A stretch of DNA of 64,000 bases from Clostridia bacterium (GTDB taxonomy: Bacteria > Bacillota > Clostridia > Oscillospirales > Acutalibacteraceae). The notes under the pieces are model-generated. The model had not been told where the DNA came from, ran no database searches, and saw only the letters and a list, made by a program, of their open reading frames with translations. The DNA lies in NCBI GenBank assembly GCA_017429345.1, contig JAFRPB010000173.1:1-64000 (forward strand). The letters are read 5' to 3'. Shown piece after piece: positions 30,300-40,900 of this stretch. Position numbers and translations under genes: made by a program. Within the stretch, counting starts at the first letter, position 1. Each line of letters starts with the position of its first letter.

Positions 30300-32060
30300 T
30301 TATTCCACGTCCTGCAGGGCGTCGTAGCCTTCCTCGCCGGTACGCACCTTCACGACGTTTTCAACGTCATAGACGAAGATCTTGCCGTCGCCGATGTGCC
30401 CTGTATAGAGCACCTTTTTCGCCGTCTCGATCACCGTGCGTACGGGCACCTTGCTGACGACGATATCCATCTGCACCTTCGGCAGCAGCGTCGCCTCGAC
30501 CTGAACGCCGCGGTAATACTCGGGCGTGCCCTTTTGGGCGCCGCAGCCCATCACGTGGGATACGGTCATACCGGTGATGCCGATGCCGAGCATCGCGGTC
30601 TTGAGCGCTTCAAGACGCGCCTCTTTGCAGACGATCTCGATTTTGGTGAACTTCGGCGTGCCTTCCTCGAAAGAGGGCACTTTCCTGACCGGTATCGCTT
30701 CAGCGACCGGCGCGTCCCCGCTGACGATGATCGGCGAAGCGCCCTCGTCGATCGCCTCGGGCAGCATCGAGAAGCCTGCGTAAGCGGAGGGAAGTCCGTG
30801 CTCGGTCTTATCGAGGCCGACCAGTTCCTCTTCTCTCGAGGCGCGCAGACCGACAAGCTTCTTGATCAGCAGGAAGGTCAGCGTGATCGTGACAGCGGTC
30901 CACGCGGCGACAGAAGCAAAGCCGAGAAGCTGAAGACCGAGAAGCTTGAATCCGCCGCCGTAGAACAGACCTGTAAGGGTGTTGCCCGCGCTGTCTGCGA
31001 TCGAGTAGCCGGGCGCTTTATCTGTCGCAAACAGACCGACCGAGAGCGTGCCCCAGATGCCGTTTATGCAGTGTACCGCGACCGCGCCGACGGGGTCGTC
31101 GATGTGCAGCTTATAGTCGAGCAGCCATACGCCGAAAACGACGAGCACGCCGGAGACGGCGCCGATGCAGACCGCGCCGACGCAGTCCGTCACGTCGCAG
31201 GGGGCGGTGATCGCCACCAGGCCCGCCAGCGAAGCGTTCAGGCACATCGAGACGTCGGGTTTGCCGTATTTGATCCACGTGAAGATCATGCAGACGACTG
31301 TCGCGACCGCCGGGGAGATCGTGGTGGTCAGAAAGATCGAGCCGAGCTGCGGCACGGTCGTCGCGGCGGCGCCGTTGAAACCGTACCAGCCGAGCCAGAG
31401 GATGAACACGCCCAGCGCGCCCAGCGCGATGCTGTGGCCGGGGAAGGCGTTGACCTTCGTCACTTTTCCGTCTTTGTCCTTATTGAATTTGCCGATGCGG
31501 GGCCCCAGGAGCTTCGCACCGATCAGCGCGGAGATGCCGCCGACCATGTGGATCGCGCAGGAGCCGGCGAAATCGTGGAAGCCGAGCTGGCTCAGCCACC
31601 CGCCGCCCCAGATCCAGTGTGCCTCGATCGGATAGATCAGCGCCGAGATCACGCCGGAATAGATGCAGTAGGATAAGAATTTCGTGCGTTCCGCCATCGC
31701 GCCGGAGACGATCGTCGCGGTCGTGGCGCAGAACACGAGGTTGAATACGAAGCTTGAGAAATCAAAGCTCTCGTATGCGGTGAATAAGTCGAAGCCCGGC
31801 TTTCCGATCAGACCGACCAGATCCTCGCCCATCAGAAGACCGAAGCCGATCACGATGAACACGACCGTGCCGATGCAGAAATCCATCAGGTTCTTCATGA
31901 TGATGTTGCCGGTGTTTTTCGCTCTTGTAAAACCGGCTTCCACCATCGCGAAGCCCGCCTGCATCCAAAAAACCAGCGCCGCGCCGATCAGAAACCACAC
32001 GGCGAAGACCTCGGAGCCCACAGCTTCTTTGACAAGTTCCATGATACTGTCCGCATTCAT
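30300..32060 (-). CDS. amt: Ammonium channel fused to a PII signalling domain
   Basis: A 586-residue fusion. Residues 1-410 are an Amt/Mep channel of about eleven membrane helices with 'FWMQAGFAMVEAGFTRAKN' and 'DFAGSCAIHMVGG'. After a linker, residues about 475-586 are a complete PII (GlnB/GlnK) domain: 'GIGITGMTVSHVMGCGAQKG', T-loop 'YYRGVQVEATLLPKV', B-loop 'GHIGDGKIFV', C-loop 'RTGEEG'. PII proteins plug Amt channels under nitrogen sufficiency, so the fusion puts the gate on the same chain. The T-loop position of the uridylylated Tyr51 is valine here. GGAG lies 8 bases before the ATG. Downstream of glnN and its terminator, upstream of asnB. Confidence 0.9.
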   Translation of the reverse strand: MNADSIMELVKEAVGSEVFAVWFLIGAALVFWMQAGFAMVEAGFTRAKNTGNIIMKNLMDFCIGTVVFIVIGFGLLMGEDLVGLIGKPGFDLFTAYESFDFSSFVFNLVFCATTATIVSGAMAERTKFLSYCIYSGVISALIYPIEAHWIWGGGWLSQLGFHDFAGSCAIHMVGGISALIGAKLLGPRIGKFNKDKDGKVTKVNAFPGHSIALGALGVFILWLGWYGFNGAAATTVPQLGSIFLTTTISPAVATVVCMIFTWIKYGKPDVSMCLNASLAGLVAITAPCDVTDCVGAVCIGAVSGVLVVFGVWLLDYKLHIDDPVGAVAVHCINGIWGTLSVGLFATDKAPGYSIADSAGNTLTGLFYGGGFKLLGLQLLGFASVAAWTAVTITLTFLLIKKLVGLRASREEELVGLDKTEHGLPSAYAGFSMLPEAIDEGASPIIVSGDAPVAEAIPVRKVPSFEEGTPKFTKIEIVCKEARLEALKTAMLGIGITGMTVSHVMGCGAQKGTPEYYRGVQVEATLLPKVQMDIVVSKVPVRTVIETAKKVLYTGHIGDGKIFVYDVENVVKVRTGEEGYDALQDVE

Positions 32061-32209: not shown

Positions 32210-34306
<2,097 letters not shown>

Positions 34307-34341
34307 GGAATAAAACCTCTTTCCTTCTGAAATTAAAGAGA

Positions 34342-34382
34342 AAGACGCCTTTGCGCCGGGAACGGCACATAAGACGCCTTTG
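34342..34382 (-). promoter_or_regulatory. glnN leader: paired AAAGGCGTCTT elements
   Basis: On the minus strand CAAAGGCGTCTT occurs twice (34382-34371 and 34353-34342), 29 bases apart. The first sits in a hairpin AAGAC-[AAAGGC]-GTCTT whose six-base loop has A first and G fourth; between the copies is a hairpin TGTGCCG/CGGCGCA. A/G-patterned hexaloops are what ANTAR antiterminators bind; the second copy has a poor stem, so the match is incomplete. Confidence 0.4.
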
Positions 34383-34412
34383 TCTTCTGAAAAAAAATTA
34401 TGAAAAGCAACG

Positions 34413-34450
34413 AAAAAGAGGGGTCTTCGAGCGCTTTGCCCGAAGACCCC
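34413..34450 (-). terminator. Leader terminator (attenuator) of glnN
   Basis: Minus strand: GGGGTCTTCG pairs with CGAAGACCCC (34450-34420) and is followed by TCTTTTTCG. It begins about 18 bases after the -10 box of the glnN promoter, hence inside the glnN leader. An outer GCAACG/CGTTGC pairing is also possible. Confidence 0.75.
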
Positions 34451-34467
34451 GTTGCCTTACGTTTGGC

Positions 34468-34496
34468 ATTATACAACCGTTTGCGCCGTTTGTCAA
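34468..34496 (-). promoter_or_regulatory. Consensus promoter of glnN
   Basis: Minus strand TTGACA (34496-34491), 17 bases, TATAAT (34473-34468): exact consensus. Confidence 0.85.
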
Positions 34497-35799: not shown

Positions 35800-35828
35800 T
35801 TGACAAATCGGAATGATTGGGCTATAAT
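35800..35828 (+). promoter_or_regulatory. Consensus promoter of the glutamate synthase operon
   Basis: TTGACA (35800-35805), 17 bases, TATAAT (35823-35828): exact consensus, 77 bases before the start codon. Confidence 0.88.
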
Positions 35829-35836
35829 GCTATCGA

Positions 35837-35886
35837 ATGAGCAAGGGCGTTCATCCGTTACCGGATGGGCGCTTTCTCTTTTTTTG
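35837..35886 (+). terminator. Leader attenuator of the glutamate synthase operon
   Basis: An intrinsic terminator (AGGGCGTTCATCCG, 35844-35857, with CGGATGGGCGCTTT, 35862-35875, TTAC loop, then CTC and seven T) lies between the promoter and the ATG. Its left arm overlaps an alternative hairpin, ATGAGC-[AAGGGC]-GTTCAT (35837-35854), with a hexaloop having A first and G fourth. The two are mutually exclusive, the layout of an attenuator. The regulator is not identified. Confidence 0.7.
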
Positions 35887-35905
35887 TTGAAAGGACCGAT
35901 CGCAA

Positions 35906-37003
35906 ATGAAAAAGGAAGGTCAAGTCAGGATCCCGTCGGGCTGCGCGATCGCCGCGGTCATTTCCACCGAGGGAGACCGCATCCCCGGCGATCTGATCGC
36001 CCGCTCGATGGAGCCGATGCACGAGCGCTCCAACGGCCTGGGCGGCGGCTTTGCCGGCTACGGGATCTATCCGGAATATAAGGATTTTTACGCGCTGCAC
36101 TTCTTCTTCGACTCCCGCCCGACGCGCAAGGACTGCGAGGCGTTCCTCAAGGAGCGCTTTGAGATCGTGCAGTCGGAGATCGTGCCGACGCGCAAGATTC
36201 CCGCGATCACCGACGAGCCGATCGTCTGGCGTTATTTTGTCGCGCCGCTGCAGTCCGAGCTTCGCAGGATGCAGCTCGACGAGAAGGAATTCGTCGCCCG
36301 AACGGTCATGAAGATCAACACCGAGACCGAGGGCGCGTACGTCTTTTCGAGCGGGAAAAATATGGGCGCGTTCAAAGCGGTCGGCTTCCCCGAGGACGTC
36401 GGCGTATTCTATAGATTGGAAGAGTACGCGGGCTATTCGTGGACCGCGCACGGGCGCTATCCGACCAACACGCCAGGCTGGTGGGGCGGCGCGCATCCGT
36501 TCACGCTGCTGGATTTCTCGGTCGTGCACAACGGCGAGATCTCATCCTACGATGCGAACCGCAGATTTATAGAAATGTACGGCTACAAATGCTCCCTGCA
36601 GACCGACACCGAGGTCATCACCTATATGATGGATTATCTCGTGCGCGTGCAGGGTCTGACGCTGACCGAGGCGGCAAACGTGATCGCCGCGCCGTTCTGG
36701 AGCACGATCGAGGCGCAGAAAGACCCCGAGGTCAGGACGCGCTGCGCGTTCCTGCGCACGGTGTTCCCGAGCATGCTGATCACGGGTCCCTTCTCGATCG
36801 TGCTGGGCTTTACCGGCGGACTGATGGCGCTGAACGACCGGCTCAAGCTGCGTTCTATGGTCGTCGGCGAGAAGGACGATAAAGTATTCGTCGCGAGCGA
36901 GGAGGCCGCCATCCGCGTGATGGAACCGGACGCGGAGAACATCCGCTATCCGGCGGGCGGCGAGCCGGTCGTGATCCGGGTGAAGGAGGGCGTTGAAATA
37001 TGA
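35906..37003 (+). CDS. Glutamate synthase, glutamine amidotransferase subunit (split GltB domain 1)
   Basis: A 365-residue class II amidotransferase corresponding to the N-terminal domain of GltB; it hydrolyses glutamine and passes ammonia to the FMN subunit. The likely nucleophile is Cys13 in 'IPSGCAI', preceded by a short leader that would need processing. Later motifs: 'SWTAHGRYPTNTPGWWGGAHPF' region, 'VVHNGEISSYDANRRF', 'QTDTEVITY'. First of five overlapping genes; the next start overlaps its stop by four bases. Expression is likely set by the leader attenuator. Confidence 0.85.
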   Translation: MKKEGQVRIPSGCAIAAVISTEGDRIPGDLIARSMEPMHERSNGLGGGFAGYGIYPEYKDFYALHFFFDSRPTRKDCEAFLKERFEIVQSEIVPTRKIPAITDEPIVWRYFVAPLQSELRRMQLDEKEFVARTVMKINTETEGAYVFSSGKNMGAFKAVGFPEDVGVFYRLEEYAGYSWTAHGRYPTNTPGWWGGAHPFTLLDFSVVHNGEISSYDANRRFIEMYGYKCSLQTDTEVITYMMDYLVRVQGLTLTEAANVIAAPFWSTIEAQKDPEVRTRCAFLRTVFPSMLITGPFSIVLGFTGGLMALNDRLKLRSMVVGEKDDKVFVASEEAAIRVMEPDAENIRYPAGGEPVVIRVKEGVEI

Positions 37004-38505
37004 CCGTCGAATATATCAGCCCCGAGTTTGAGGTCGTGCGAAATCAGGACCGCTGCATCGCCTGCCGCGTCTGTGAACGGCAATGCGCAAACGAAGTGCA
37101 TTTTTATAATGAGGAACGCGGCTTGATGCTCTCCGATGAGACCAAATGCGTCGACTGTCAGCGCTGCGTCTCCCTGTGTCCGACGCGCGCGCTCAAGATC
37201 GTGAAAAATGAATGCGCTCTGCGCGAGAACGCCAACTGGCAGAGCGATACCATTAAAGAAATTTATAAACAGGCGAACAGCGGCGGCGTGCTGCTGTCCT
37301 CCATGGGCAACCCGAAGCCCCTGCCGGTGTATTGGGATAAGATCCTCATCAACGCCTCGCAGGTGACGAACCCGCCGATCGATCCGCTGCGCGAGCCGAT
37401 GGAGACGCGCGTTTTCCTCGGCAAAAAGCCCGACCGGCTCGAGCGGGACGCTGACGGGAAACTCAAAACAGACCTTCCGCCGCAGGTCACGCTCTCGATG
37501 CCGGTGATGTTCTCCGCCATGAGCTACGGCTCGATCAGCTACAACGCCCACGCGTCGCTTGCGCGGGCGGCGAAGGAAGTCGGCATTCTTTACAATACCG
37601 GCGAGGGCGGACTGCACGAGGATTTCTACGCCTACGGCGAAAATACGGTCGTGCAGGTCGCGAGCGGACGTTTCGGCGTACACGAAAAGTATCTTGAGGC
37701 GGGCGCCGCCATCGAGATCAAAATGGGACAGGGCGCGAAGCCCGGCATCGGCGGGCATCTGCCCGGCGCGAAGATCGTCGGCGACGTTTCGCGCACGCGC
37801 ATGATCCCCGAGGGGTCGGACGCGATCTCGCCCGCGCCGCACCACGATATCTATTCGATCGAGGATCTGCGGCAGCTCGTTTATTCGTTAAAAGAGGCGA
37901 CCCAGTATAAAAAGCCTATTATCGTCAAGGTCGCGGCGGTGCACAATATCGCCGCCATCGCCAGCGGTATCGCGCGCAGCGGCGCGGACGTGATCGCGAT
38001 CGACGGTTTCCGCGGCGGTACCGGCGCGGCGCCCACACGCATCCGCGACAACGTGGGCATCCCGATCGAGCTGGCGCTCGCTGCGGTGGATCAGCGTCTG
38101 CGGGACGAAGGGATCCGCAATAATGTGTCGCTGGTCGTCGGCGGTTCGATCCGCAGCGCGGCGGACGTCGTCAAGGCCATCGCCCTCGGCGCGGACGCGT
38201 GCTACATCGCGACGGCGGCGCTGCTGGCGCTTGGCTGTCATCTCTGCCGCACCTGCCAGAGCGGCAAATGCAACTGGGGCATCGCGACCCAGCGCCCGGA
38301 GCTGGTCAAGCGGCTGAATCCCGATATCGGCAGCGAACGGCTCGTGAACCTGATGACCGCCTGGCGGCATGAGATCATGGAGCTGATGGGCGGCATGGGC
38401 ATTAACTCGATCGAAGCGCTGAGGGGCAACCGGCTGATGCTGCGCGGCGTAGGCCTTACGGAAAAAGAGCTGGAGATCCTCGGGATCTCCCACGCGGGGG
38501 AATAA
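37000..38505 (+). CDS. Glutamate synthase, FMN/iron-sulfur subunit (archaeal-type GltB domain 2)
   Basis: A 501-residue catalytic subunit that makes glutamate from 2-oxoglutarate and ammonia. Two ferredoxin-type 4Fe-4S motifs lie at the N-terminus ('CIACRVCERQC', 'CVDCQRCVSLCP', about residues 13-65); the FMN-binding barrel follows with 'NTGEGGLHEDF', 'KMGQGAKPGIGGHLPG', 'DGFRGGTGAAPT', and the 3Fe-4S motif 'CHLCRTCQSGKCNWG'. This is the short archaeal or clostridial type rather than the 1500-residue bacterial GltB. ATGA overlap with domain 1; 3 bases before the ferredoxin gene. Confidence 0.9.
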   Translation: MTVEYISPEFEVVRNQDRCIACRVCERQCANEVHFYNEERGLMLSDETKCVDCQRCVSLCPTRALKIVKNECALRENANWQSDTIKEIYKQANSGGVLLSSMGNPKPLPVYWDKILINASQVTNPPIDPLREPMETRVFLGKKPDRLERDADGKLKTDLPPQVTLSMPVMFSAMSYGSISYNAHASLARAAKEVGILYNTGEGGLHEDFYAYGENTVVQVASGRFGVHEKYLEAGAAIEIKMGQGAKPGIGGHLPGAKIVGDVSRTRMIPEGSDAISPAPHHDIYSIEDLRQLVYSLKEATQYKKPIIVKVAAVHNIAAIASGIARSGADVIAIDGFRGGTGAAPTRIRDNVGIPIELALAAVDQRLRDEGIRNNVSLVVGGSIRSAADVVKAIALGADACYIATAALLALGCHLCRTCQSGKCNWGIATQRPELVKRLNPDIGSERLVNLMTAWRHEIMELMGGMGINSIEALRGNRLMLRGVGLTEKELEILGISHAGE

Positions 38506-38508
38506 ACG

Positions 38509-38949
38509 ATGAAACGGGTATACGTCAACGAGGAATGGTGCCTCGGGTGCCATCTCTGCGAATACAACTGCGCCTTCGCCAACTCCGGCAAGACCGATAT
38601 GGCGACGGCGCTGAAGGGAAAGCGGATCTATCCGCGCATCCACGTGGAGGGCGCGGACAGGATCACCTACGCGGTCTCCTGTCGCCATTGCGAGGATCCG
38701 ATCTGCGTCAAAAGCTGCATCGCCGGGGCGATCTCGAAGAAGGACGGCGTGGTGTGCATCGACCGCAATAAATGCGTCGGGTGCCTTACCTGCGTACTGG
38801 TCTGTCCGTTCGGCGCCCTCGCGCCGGGCGAGGACGGCGTGATGCAGAAATGCGAGCTCTGCCTGCAGAACGGCGCCGGCGCGCCGGCCTGCGTAACGGG
38901 CTGCCCGAACCGGGCGATCGTATATGAGGAAAGGGGCGAAGACGAATGA
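38509..38949 (+). CDS. 4Fe-4S ferredoxin subunit of the glutamate synthase operon
   Basis: A 146-residue polyferredoxin with cysteine clusters 'CLGCHLCEYNC', 'CRHCEDPICVKSC', 'CVGCLTCVLVCP' and 'CELCLQNGAGAPACVTGCP', the CooF/DmsB arrangement of four clusters. It probably carries electrons from the adjacent flavoprotein to the FMN subunit. Its stop overlaps the flavoprotein start. Confidence 0.85.
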   Translation: MKRVYVNEEWCLGCHLCEYNCAFANSGKTDMATALKGKRIYPRIHVEGADRITYAVSCRHCEDPICVKSCIAGAISKKDGVVCIDRNKCVGCLTCVLVCPFGALAPGEDGVMQKCELCLQNGAGAPACVTGCPNRAIVYEERGEDE

Positions 38950-40181
38950 AACGCTGCGTCATCATCGGCAACGGCGCCGCGGCGGCGGGCTGCATCGAGG
39001 GGATCCGCTCGGTCGACGCCGAAGCGGAGATCACGGTCGTCTCCGCCGAAAACCACGCCGTTTACGGAAGGCCACTGATCTCTTATTTTCTTGAAGGCAA
39101 AACCGATCCCGCGCATATGAATTACCGGGACGCGGACTTTTATGAAAAAAACGGCTGCCGTGTTCTTTATGGCAGAACGGCGGTCGGGCTTGACCCCGAA
39201 AAAAAGGAAGTCACGCTCGACGGCGGGGAGAAGCTTCCCTTCGACGCGGTCTGCGTCGCGACGGGATCGTCGCCCTTTGTGCCGCCCTTTGAAGGACTTG
39301 ATACGGTCGAGAAGAAATTTTCGTTCATGACGCTCGACGACGCCGAGGCGCTCGCAGAGGCGGTAAATCAGGATTCCCGCGTGCTGATCGTCGGCGCGGG
39401 GCTGATCGGGCTCAAGTGCGCCGAAGGGCTGCACGGCAGAGTCGGTTCAATCGTCGTCTGCGATCTTGCCGACCGGGTGCTCTCGAGCATCCTCGACGCG
39501 GAATGCGCGGGGCGTATGCAAAAACGTCTTGAGGAGAACGGGATCGGATTTCTGCTTGCCGACAGCGCCGTGCGGTTTGATAAAAACACCGCGTATATGC
39601 GCAGCGGGAAAGAAGTCGGCTTCGATATCCTCGTCCTTTGCGTCGGCGTGCGGGCGAATACCGCGCTTGTGAAGGACGCAGGCGGCGAGGTGGGCAGAGG
39701 GATCGCCGTGGATGAAACGATGCGCACTTCTCTGTCGGACGTATACGCCTCGGGCGACTGCACCGAGAGCGTCGACTGCTCCAGCGGCGTGCGCAAGGTC
39801 ATGGCGCTGATGCCCAACGCCTATATGCAGGGCTTTGCCGCGGGCGTCAATATGGCGGGGGGCGAGACACGTTTCGACAACGCGATCCCGATGAACTCCG
39901 TGGGCTTCTTCGGGCTGCACGCGATGACCGCCGGCACCTACGAAGGCGAGTTATACGAAGAAAAAACCGAGGATACCCTCAAACGGTTTTACGTAAAAGA
40001 CGATCTGCTGAAGGGATTTATCCTGATCGGTGACACGACGCGGACGGGGATCTATACCTCTCTGATCCGCGAACGGACGAAGCTTTCATCCATTGATTTT
40101 TCGCTTCTTCTACAGAGCGCGACCACCGCCGCGTTCTCCGAGAAAGAGCGCAGGATCAAATTCGGAGGTGCGAAAAAATGA
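38946..40181 (+). CDS. NAD(P)/FAD-dependent oxidoreductase of the glutamate synthase operon
   Basis: A 411-residue flavoprotein of the pyridine-nucleotide-disulfide oxidoreductase superfamily: FAD motif 'IIGNGAAAAGCIEG', ATG motif 'VCVATGSSPFVPP', NAD(P) motif 'VLIVGAGLIGLKCAEGL', and 'DVYASGDC'. It resembles NADH oxidase or ferredoxin reductases, not the usual GltD. By position it feeds electrons from NAD(P)H through the ferredoxin to glutamate synthase. Four-base overlaps at both ends. Confidence 0.82.
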   Translation: MKRCVIIGNGAAAAGCIEGIRSVDAEAEITVVSAENHAVYGRPLISYFLEGKTDPAHMNYRDADFYEKNGCRVLYGRTAVGLDPEKKEVTLDGGEKLPFDAVCVATGSSPFVPPFEGLDTVEKKFSFMTLDDAEALAEAVNQDSRVLIVGAGLIGLKCAEGLHGRVGSIVVCDLADRVLSSILDAECAGRMQKRLEENGIGFLLADSAVRFDKNTAYMRSGKEVGFDILVLCVGVRANTALVKDAGGEVGRGIAVDETMRTSLSDVYASGDCTESVDCSSGVRKVMALMPNAYMQGFAAGVNMAGGETRFDNAIPMNSVGFFGLHAMTAGTYEGELYEEKTEDTLKRFYVKDDLLKGFILIGDTTRTGIYTSLIRERTKLSSIDFSLLLQSATTAAFSEKERRIKFGGAKK

Positions 40182-40900
40182 CGCGGATCGAAGCGAACGG
40201 ACTTGACCACAAAGCGCTGAATGAGGCGCTGCGTGCGGGGGAACGCGAATGCGCCCTCGTCGGCTGCGGCGGACAGCGTTTCCTCGGCGCGGGCATGGCG
40301 GATAAGGAGATAACGATTGACGGCGTGCCGGGCAACGCGCTCGGGGCGTATCTCAACGGCGCGCGCATCACCGTGCGCGGCAACGCGCAGGACGCGGTCG
40401 GCGACACGATGAACGAGGGTCTGATCGCCGTCTTCGGCAACATCGGCGACGCGGCGGGCTACGCGATGCGCGGTGGGCGGATCTACGTTAAGGGCGACGC
40501 GGGCTACCGCGCGGGGATCCATATGAAAGAATATCACGAGAAAAAGCCGGTCATGGTGATCGGCGGCTCGGCGGGCAGCTTTCTGGGCGAATATCAGGCC
40601 GGCGGCGTGATCGTCGTGCTCGGGCTCGGCGGTGAAACGAAGCGGATCGTCGGCAATTTCCCCTGCACGGGCATGCACGGCGGCAAGATGTTCCTGCGCT
40701 CGGACTGCAAAGACGTGCGCTTCCCGAAGCAGGTCACCGCGCGTCCCGCCGTGGCGCAGGATCTGACGGAGCTCAGACCGATCCTTGAGGACTACTGCAA
40801 AGTTTTCGGGTATGATCCCGACAAAATGATCGACGTGCCGTTCACCGTGATCGTACCGGATACGGCGAACCCCTATCAGCAGATGTACGTCGCGAACTGA
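40178..40900 (+). CDS. Glutamate synthase GXGXG subunit (split GltB domain 3)
   Basis: A 240-residue right-handed beta-helix matching the C-terminal GltB domain, which has a structural role in the ammonia channel. The glycine repeats read as 'GCGGQRFLGAGMADKEI', 'GNALGAYLNGARITVRGNAQDAVGDTM', 'GNIGDAAGYAMRGG', 'GDAGYRAGIHM', 'GGSAGSFLGEYQAGG'. Last gene of the operon, ahead of a strong terminator. Confidence 0.88.
   Translation: MTRIEANGLDHKALNEALRAGERECALVGCGGQRFLGAGMADKEITIDGVPGNALGAYLNGARITVRGNAQDAVGDTMNEGLIAVFGNIGDAAGYAMRGGRIYVKGDAGYRAGIHMKEYHEKKPVMVIGGSAGSFLGEYQAGGVIVVLGLGGETKRIVGNFPCTGMHGGKMFLRSDCKDVRFPKQVTARPAVAQDLTELRPILEDYCKVFGYDPDKMIDVPFTVIVPDTANPYQQMYVAN

Follow-up and report, generated by a model that had tools for sequence, protein, structure and literature searches.

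The window, by which we mean the whole stretch of 64,000 nucleotides analysed here, comes from a Clostridia bacterium of the family Acutalibacteraceae and carries on its forward strand a glt operon, in which the genes for a split glutamate synthase are joined by those for a ferredoxin-like protein and an oxidoreductase. Divergent from it lies glnN, which encodes a type III glutamine synthetase and is followed by a fusion of an ammonium transporter with a P-II domain (Table 1). Between 28640 and 34306 on the reverse strand glnN, the amt-PII fusion and an asparagine synthase-like gene (named by reading) are co-directional, and these may form one operon behind the glnN leader.

Table 1. Features of the glt-glnN region, in coordinates of the window.
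Feature	Position	Strand	Basis or detail
amt-PII fusion (ammonium transporter + P-II domain), 3' of glnN	30300-32060	-	PF00909, PF00543
glnN, type III glutamine synthetase	32210-34306	-	PF12437, PF18318, PF00120
glnN leader, terminator-like hairpin 2, overlaps hexaloop 2	34341-34381	-	whole-stretch fold -30.4 kcal/mol
glnN leader, hexaloop 2 AAGAC[AAAGGC]GTCTT, tandem attenuator	34371-34386	-	sequence, fold
glnN leader, terminator 1, overlaps hexaloop 1	34420-34450	-	fold
glnN leader, hexaloop 1 AAGGC[AACGGG]GTCTT	34443-34458	-	model R2 match, E 0.02
Divergent glnN promoter TTGACA-17-TATAAT	34468-34496	-	
Sigma-70-type promoter TTGACA-17-TATAAT of the glt operon	35800-35828	+	12/12 consensus matches; -35 35800-35805, spacer 17 nt, -10 35823-35828
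Antiterminator, putative single ANTAR site: 5'-terminal hexaloop hairpin ATGAGC[AAGGGC]GTTCAT	35837-35854	+	arms 35837-35842 / 35849-35854, loop 35843-35848
Intrinsic terminator, overlaps hexaloop and hairpin 3' arm	35844-35885	+	hairpin 35844-35875, T run 35879-35885
gltB1, glutamine amidotransferase domain of split glutamate synthase	35906-37003	+	PF00310
gltB2, FMN/glutamate synthase domain with 4Fe-4S	37000-38505	+	PF01645
Ferredoxin-like 4Fe-4S protein of the glt operon	38509-38949	+	PF13247
Pyridine nucleotide-disulphide oxidoreductase of the glt operon	38946-40181	+	PF07992
gltB3, GXGXG domain of glutamate synthase	40178-40900	+	PF01493

In the gltB1 leader 8 nt separate the -10 element from a stem of six pairs, one of them G-U, which closes the hexaloop AAGGGC; a terminator hairpin of 14 pairs and a run of seven T follow before the ATG. 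Since the terminator begins within the hexaloop, the two structures are mutually exclusive on paper. A preliminary description of this DNA had read the region as an attenuator of glutamate synthase, composed of a perfect promoter, a nearby hairpin with the six-base loop AAGGGC and an exclusive terminator ending in seven T ahead of the start codon, with only one clear loop bearing A at its first and G at its fourth position (A1/G4). Each of these parts is present as described, and the leader has just the one such loop. Folding the leader gives -23.3 kcal/mol, where its shuffles average -13.2 (z -3.88) and none of 200 does as well. At about -22.6 kcal/mol the terminator outweighs the hexaloop hairpin alone (about -5.0 kcal/mol), so that the ground state should be off. 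The significance of the leader comes from its conservation across relatives rather than from a bare terminator scan, which found 2 in the leader region where 2.0 were expected, no excess over chance. The window has no match in Rfam at the gathering threshold, and a below-threshold match to snoU13 was judged to be chance.

Similar leaders recur in the same genome. That of glnN in the window (34341-34496, reverse strand) contains two tandem attenuator-like units, the second hexaloop lying about 70 nt further on. The gdhA leader, on another contig, reads TAAGAC[AAAGGC]GTCTTA behind a -10 element poorer than in the other leaders, and a second glnN, a GSIII paralogue (L065), is headed by GCGGC[AAAGGC]GTCGC. 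The leader of the amt-PII fusion in the window, read as sequence, shows no hexaloop. A further locus (L087:890-2403) has a promoter, the hexaloop GAGC[AACGGC]GCTC and a T run, and then a 485-aa frame reaching the end of the locus. Pattern matches in this genome were kept by eye if they had a stem and a T run, which left L065, L087 and the gltB1 and glnN leaders of the window; the promoter-plus-AAGG and TATAAT-plus-CAANGNNG patterns gave mostly chance matches.

Relatives were represented by 150 genomes of the family and 80 named loci of a genome collection. Across the Clostridia the same predicted 5'-terminal hairpin, with the loop AAnGRY and a closing C-G pair, heads gltB1, glnN and gdhA: the hexaloop motif occurs in 101 of 133 gltB1, 63 of 89 glnN and 26 of 29 gdhA leaders, against a single case among 49 amt leaders searched identically as a control, in which the bases next to the loop are unpaired. 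When any promoter-proximal hexaloop with a stem of at least 6 was accepted, whatever its sequence, 90 of 134 gltB1 leaders had one, and the identity of the loop, which was not imposed, was A1 in 85/90, A2 in 85/90 and G4 in 84/90. In the same scan loops of 3, 5, 7 and 9 nt were found in 2 to 5 leaders each and tetraloops in 24, and most of those of 8 and 10 nt were this hairpin again, its uppermost pairs having been taken as loop. With only the loop sequence as anchor and nothing asked of the stem, pairs 1-4 each form in at least 97 of 99 gltB1 leaders. In 98/101 gltB1, 60/63 glnN and 21/26 gdhA leaders the loop and 3' arm also pair with a downstream segment that a T run follows; the overlap of hairpin and terminator is retained in 179 of 190. 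The named gltB1 loci conform in 75 of 80 leaders (an AA..G.. hexaloop, a closing C and at least 4 pairs), among them those of Agathobaculum desmolans ATCC 43058, Lachnospiraceae bacterium 28-4, Massiliimalia timonensis and Clostridium sp. AT4; among the five others, one closes with T-G (L195) and one is without upstream sequence (L188). An earlier alignment of 57 of 58 sequences (a duplicate was dropped), from a scan preset to A1/G4 loops closed by C-G with 4 pairs, gave biased pair counts on which nothing here relies, and one alignment set used 109 of 111 sequences, two glnN rows being left out as apparently mis-anchored. A family-wide promoter pattern matched 127 of 150 genomes and was set aside, as many of its hits resemble ribosome-binding sites.

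Covariation within the gltB1 leaders alone is uninformative because their stem hardly varies. Between genes the stems vary yet pair (ATGAGC/GTTCAT, AAAGGC/GTCTTT, CAGC/GCTG); with pairing not imposed, 93.0% of cells across genes are paired and five of the six pairs have changed on both sides. The covariation search of the leader in relatives that the preliminary description had proposed finds the paired stems kept, with a value of 0.568 against 0.259 for shuffles (0 of 500 as high), a comparison inflated by kinship, and at most 0.179 for slid controls, which preserve relatedness. It covered 150 of 164 distinct 24-mers (70 of 84 from gltB1 at random, all 57 from glnN and all 23 from gdhA) and retained mis-anchored rows. 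Conservation and pairing in relatives thus bear out the reading of the leader as an attenuator of glutamate synthase.

The hairpin also has a fixed place. The loop starts 13-16 nt past the -10 element in 92/101 gltB1, 55/63 glnN and 23/26 gdhA leaders; transcription usually starts about 7 nt after the -10 element, and from this position of the loop at most a few nucleotides should be transcribed ahead of the stem. A transcribed upstream A1/G4 hexaloop was found in 0 of 190 leaders, and a downstream one at 0-14 nt in 7 of 190. Additional strict hexaloops are present in 34/63 glnN and 12/26 gdhA leaders, mostly 50-160 nt further on, a spacing that makes them look like tandem attenuators and not dual sites; folding as tandem attenuators covers the glnN pair of the window only. 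Judged from these sequences, the leaders most likely carry a single-hexaloop antiterminator and not the published dual motif. An A1/G4 hexaloop, exclusivity with a terminator and a genome-encoded ANTAR protein, all sequence-level marks of ANTAR-target RNAs, are found here, and two hairpins joined by a short linker are not. The gltB1 hairpin would work like a dual ANTAR-target RNA; it is not filed as one because a second loop was looked for and is absent. An apparent exception to the 5'-terminal rule is the gltB1 leader of one locus (L028), where a good promoter stands some 80 nt ahead of the hexaloop.

A search of the genome for an ANTAR protein, also proposed in the preliminary description, found one gene, encoding 193 aa, directly 3' of a type I glnA (GSI) and divergent from the gdhA that has the hexaloop leader. 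The clustering of an ANTAR gene with GS/GOGAT genes that marks NitR-type systems is hence seen in this genome beside GSI and gdhA. Of the 58 named loci whose sequence runs on for 7.4 kb or more past the gltB1 start, 48 have an ANTAR gene downstream of gltB1 on its strand and 10 have none; in all 53 named loci with the gene it lies 4.4-6.8 kb from the gltB1 start, with a GSI gene between the two in 52.

Across genomes the hairpin tracks the ANTAR gene. Among the 150 family genomes the gene is found in 34 of the 35 with a hexaloop in the gltB1 leader and in 57 of the remaining 115 (p 6e-8, in Fisher tests which here and below compare genomes, not independent evolutionary events, and carry no correction for phylogeny); the sole exception, G147, is 75% complete. 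We regard as the fairest test one on glnN leaders from genomes of this family that contributed nothing to the motif. A hexaloop with a T run is present in 23 of 30 glnN leaders from ANTAR-bearing genomes and 2 of 27 from genomes lacking the gene (p about 1e-7), and with a -10 element at the right spacing the counts are 21 and 1 (p about 2e-7); 7 of the 30 are without the motif. This test drew on 39 of 59 ANTAR-lacking genomes, the more complete ones, with one leader (L300) dropped as too short, and on 31 of 91 ANTAR-bearing genomes, chosen for having no full gltB1 match, from which 30 leaders were read. Of two models, R1 (22 nt) and R2, the searches rest on R2, whose matches at E<=0.001 fall class-wide in 16 of 291 genomes, 15 of the 16 with an ANTAR gene against a background of 145/291, and at E<=0.01 within the family in 38 genomes, 33 of them with the gene (exceptions G004, G005, G118, G147 and G148); these counts come from a model that is insensitive under Infernal's strict filters and was trained on sequences from some of the genomes tested.

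Individual relatives show further arrangements. Hexaloop leaders stand before amt in two loci (L238, L263) and before an asparagine synthase-like gene in another (L248), these genes being named by eye. In a relative of the class (L270, near 1521) one precedes a gene that by eye resembles purC, which suggests that the regulon may extend to purine synthesis. In four loci (L036, L038, L042, L045) the gltB1 leader is without a hexaloop though the genome has an ANTAR gene; a hexaloop leader lies on the opposite strand in L036, L042 and L045, and precedes glnN in L036 and L045.

The ANTAR protein of this genome matches PF03861 at 56-58 bits (cut-off 27.3) and the PDB chains 1s8n (a putative antiterminator), 1qo0 (AmiR), 6wsh (a EutV structure) and 4akk (a nitrate regulatory protein). 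The phospho-acceptor aspartate of phosphorylation-controlled regulators of the EutV type is replaced in its receiver by Asn. The aligned relatives have N in 72/83 and D in 5/83, so that EutV-like control is unlikely for most of them. The residues by which EutV contacts RNA include Arg168, Met172, Arg175/Arg177 and basic positions 143/147 (PMC8934654). Mapped by hand from an alignment of 83 proteins, Met172 (the Met plug) is retained in 82 and positions 143 and 147 are Arg or Lys in 80 each; Arg168 is Glu in 74, and neither it nor Arg175/Arg177 is retained, which counts against an ANTAR reading of the leader.

Taken together, we consider that the gltB1 leader is a minimal form of ANTAR-dependent transcription antiterminator, with a probability of about 0.8. 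From the sequences we infer ANTAR binding, antitermination, a nitrogen signal and the sufficiency of one loop, which would combine as follows. Without active ANTAR protein the nascent leader would fold into the terminator and transcription would stop after about 50 nt. Active ANTAR protein, presumably under nitrogen limitation, would bind the single AAnGRY hexaloop, which should form at the RNA 5' end before the 3' arm of the terminator is made; with the 3' arm of the bound hairpin held, RNA polymerase would continue into gltB1. One ANTAR protein could in this way co-ordinate gltB1, glnN and gdhA, and in some relatives amt and asparagine synthase genes also, and where its gene stands at the end of the glt operon it would control its own synthesis too. 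The receiver has lost its phospho-acceptor, so that a partner protein or ligand, as in AmiR, is a more probable source of the signal than phosphorylation. The adjacent glutamine synthetase (GS) is a candidate sensor, suggested by its constant place beside the ANTAR gene; this is a guess by analogy with Bacillus subtilis, where GS interacts with TnrA (PMC6316151). We would give even odds to a broader proposal, of a large clostridial regulon in which one 5'-terminal hexaloop per terminator is a complete site and a pseudo-receiver ANTAR protein has its activity set by the neighbouring GS or its feedback state. If so, a sole loop at the first nucleotides of the transcript would make the P1 'recruitment' loop of the present model unnecessary.

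The requirement for P1 in Enterococcus faecalis eutP, where its deletion abolished induction (PMC3369931), is a counterpoint to this reading, and equally invites the view that the leader is a dual-hexaloop site whose P1 was missed, either because transcription starts upstream of the predicted promoter or because the P1 loop differs. One named locus (L185) does have a second A1/G4 hexaloop a few nucleotides downstream. The fixed distance from the -10 element nevertheless leaves little to be transcribed before the stem in most leaders, and with no upstream and so few downstream second loops a missed P1 is very improbable. Faced with a single loop, the preliminary description had leaned away from ANTAR and allowed for another factor or a small ligand. 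The evidence points the other way: one loop is the rule in the group, an ANTAR gene is present and the hairpin goes with it. A consensus tighter than A1/G4 and the want of a matching Rfam family would suit some other reader of the hairpin, but the hairpin follows the ANTAR gene, which is linked to the leader's own operon, and for an RNA that binds a ligand 18-20 nt and a single invariant loop would be very little. A small-ligand riboswitch was rejected on size and ANTAR co-occurrence, and the idea of another factor or ligand is, as a whole, just as improbable as a missed P1; the evidence supports the view that neither is needed to explain the leader.

A 5' hairpin can in general slow decay, and the leader could thus be a stabilising hairpin, or else a fixed weak terminator, without regulated read-through. 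This is the least probable alternative, given that hairpin and terminator overlap in nearly all leaders, that the sequence of the loop is conserved and that the hairpin follows ANTAR presence.

Among known ANTAR proteins, AmiR matches that of this genome in sequence, and both have a receiver apparently not controlled by phosphorylation, as is the case for AmiR. The AmiR gene is encoded beside amiC, whereas the ANTAR gene here sits beside GSI glnA. A complete site made of one 5'-terminal hexaloop, recurring before gltB1, glnN and gdhA in Clostridia and combined with a lost phospho-acceptor, appears to be new. No report of single-hexaloop antiterminators was found in the open-licence literature searched, a scope outside which lies Stutz et al. 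2007, reportedly the original study of NitR. NitR of Clostridium saccharobutylicum is described as an ANTAR protein that induces genes of the GS/GOGAT cycle by antitermination when nitrogen is limiting (PMC6316151, PMC4676874). The regulon described here resembles that of NitR in its ANTAR protein and GS/GOGAT genes, a likeness drawn from description, leader anatomy aside, and covers gltB1, glnN and gdhA of gut Clostridia; as NitR is described for clostridial GS/GOGAT genes, it is probably a relative of a known system. The leaders point to a way in which ammonia assimilation is co-ordinated in gut and rumen Clostridia.

Dual ANTAR-target RNAs, as described for EutV/eutP, NasR/nasF and AmiR/amiE (PMC3369931), share with these leaders an A1/G4 hexaloop, a fold exclusive with an intrinsic terminator and an association with nitrogen metabolism genes. 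They differ in that there is here one hexaloop, at the RNA 5' end, with A2 and the closing C-G nearly invariant, and in that the extra copies before glnN and gdhA are mostly too distant for a linker. In the E. faecalis eut genes 5-12 nt link the two loops, and induction suffers when the linker is 3 or 14 nt long (PMC3369931, Ramesh et al. 2012); NasR is reported to bind a single hairpin poorly, at about 12 uM (PMC7496416), which also tells against the one-loop reading. In the current model an ANTAR dimer visits two loops in turn, and the 2022 structure paper redefines the minimal EutV binding site as one hexaloop, holds both loops necessary for antitermination and leaves single loops open, as sites that deserve analysis (PMC8934654). 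Compared with that suggestion, one-loop antiterminators appear here to be widespread. The single-loop pattern widens the search for ANTAR sites, since searches for dual hairpins would miss such sites, and with more than 100 natural one-loop leaders at a fixed place in the transcript, tied to ANTAR, the single-loop question becomes directly testable. Nature thus offers in these leaders a means of asking why two loops are needed in other ANTAR systems.
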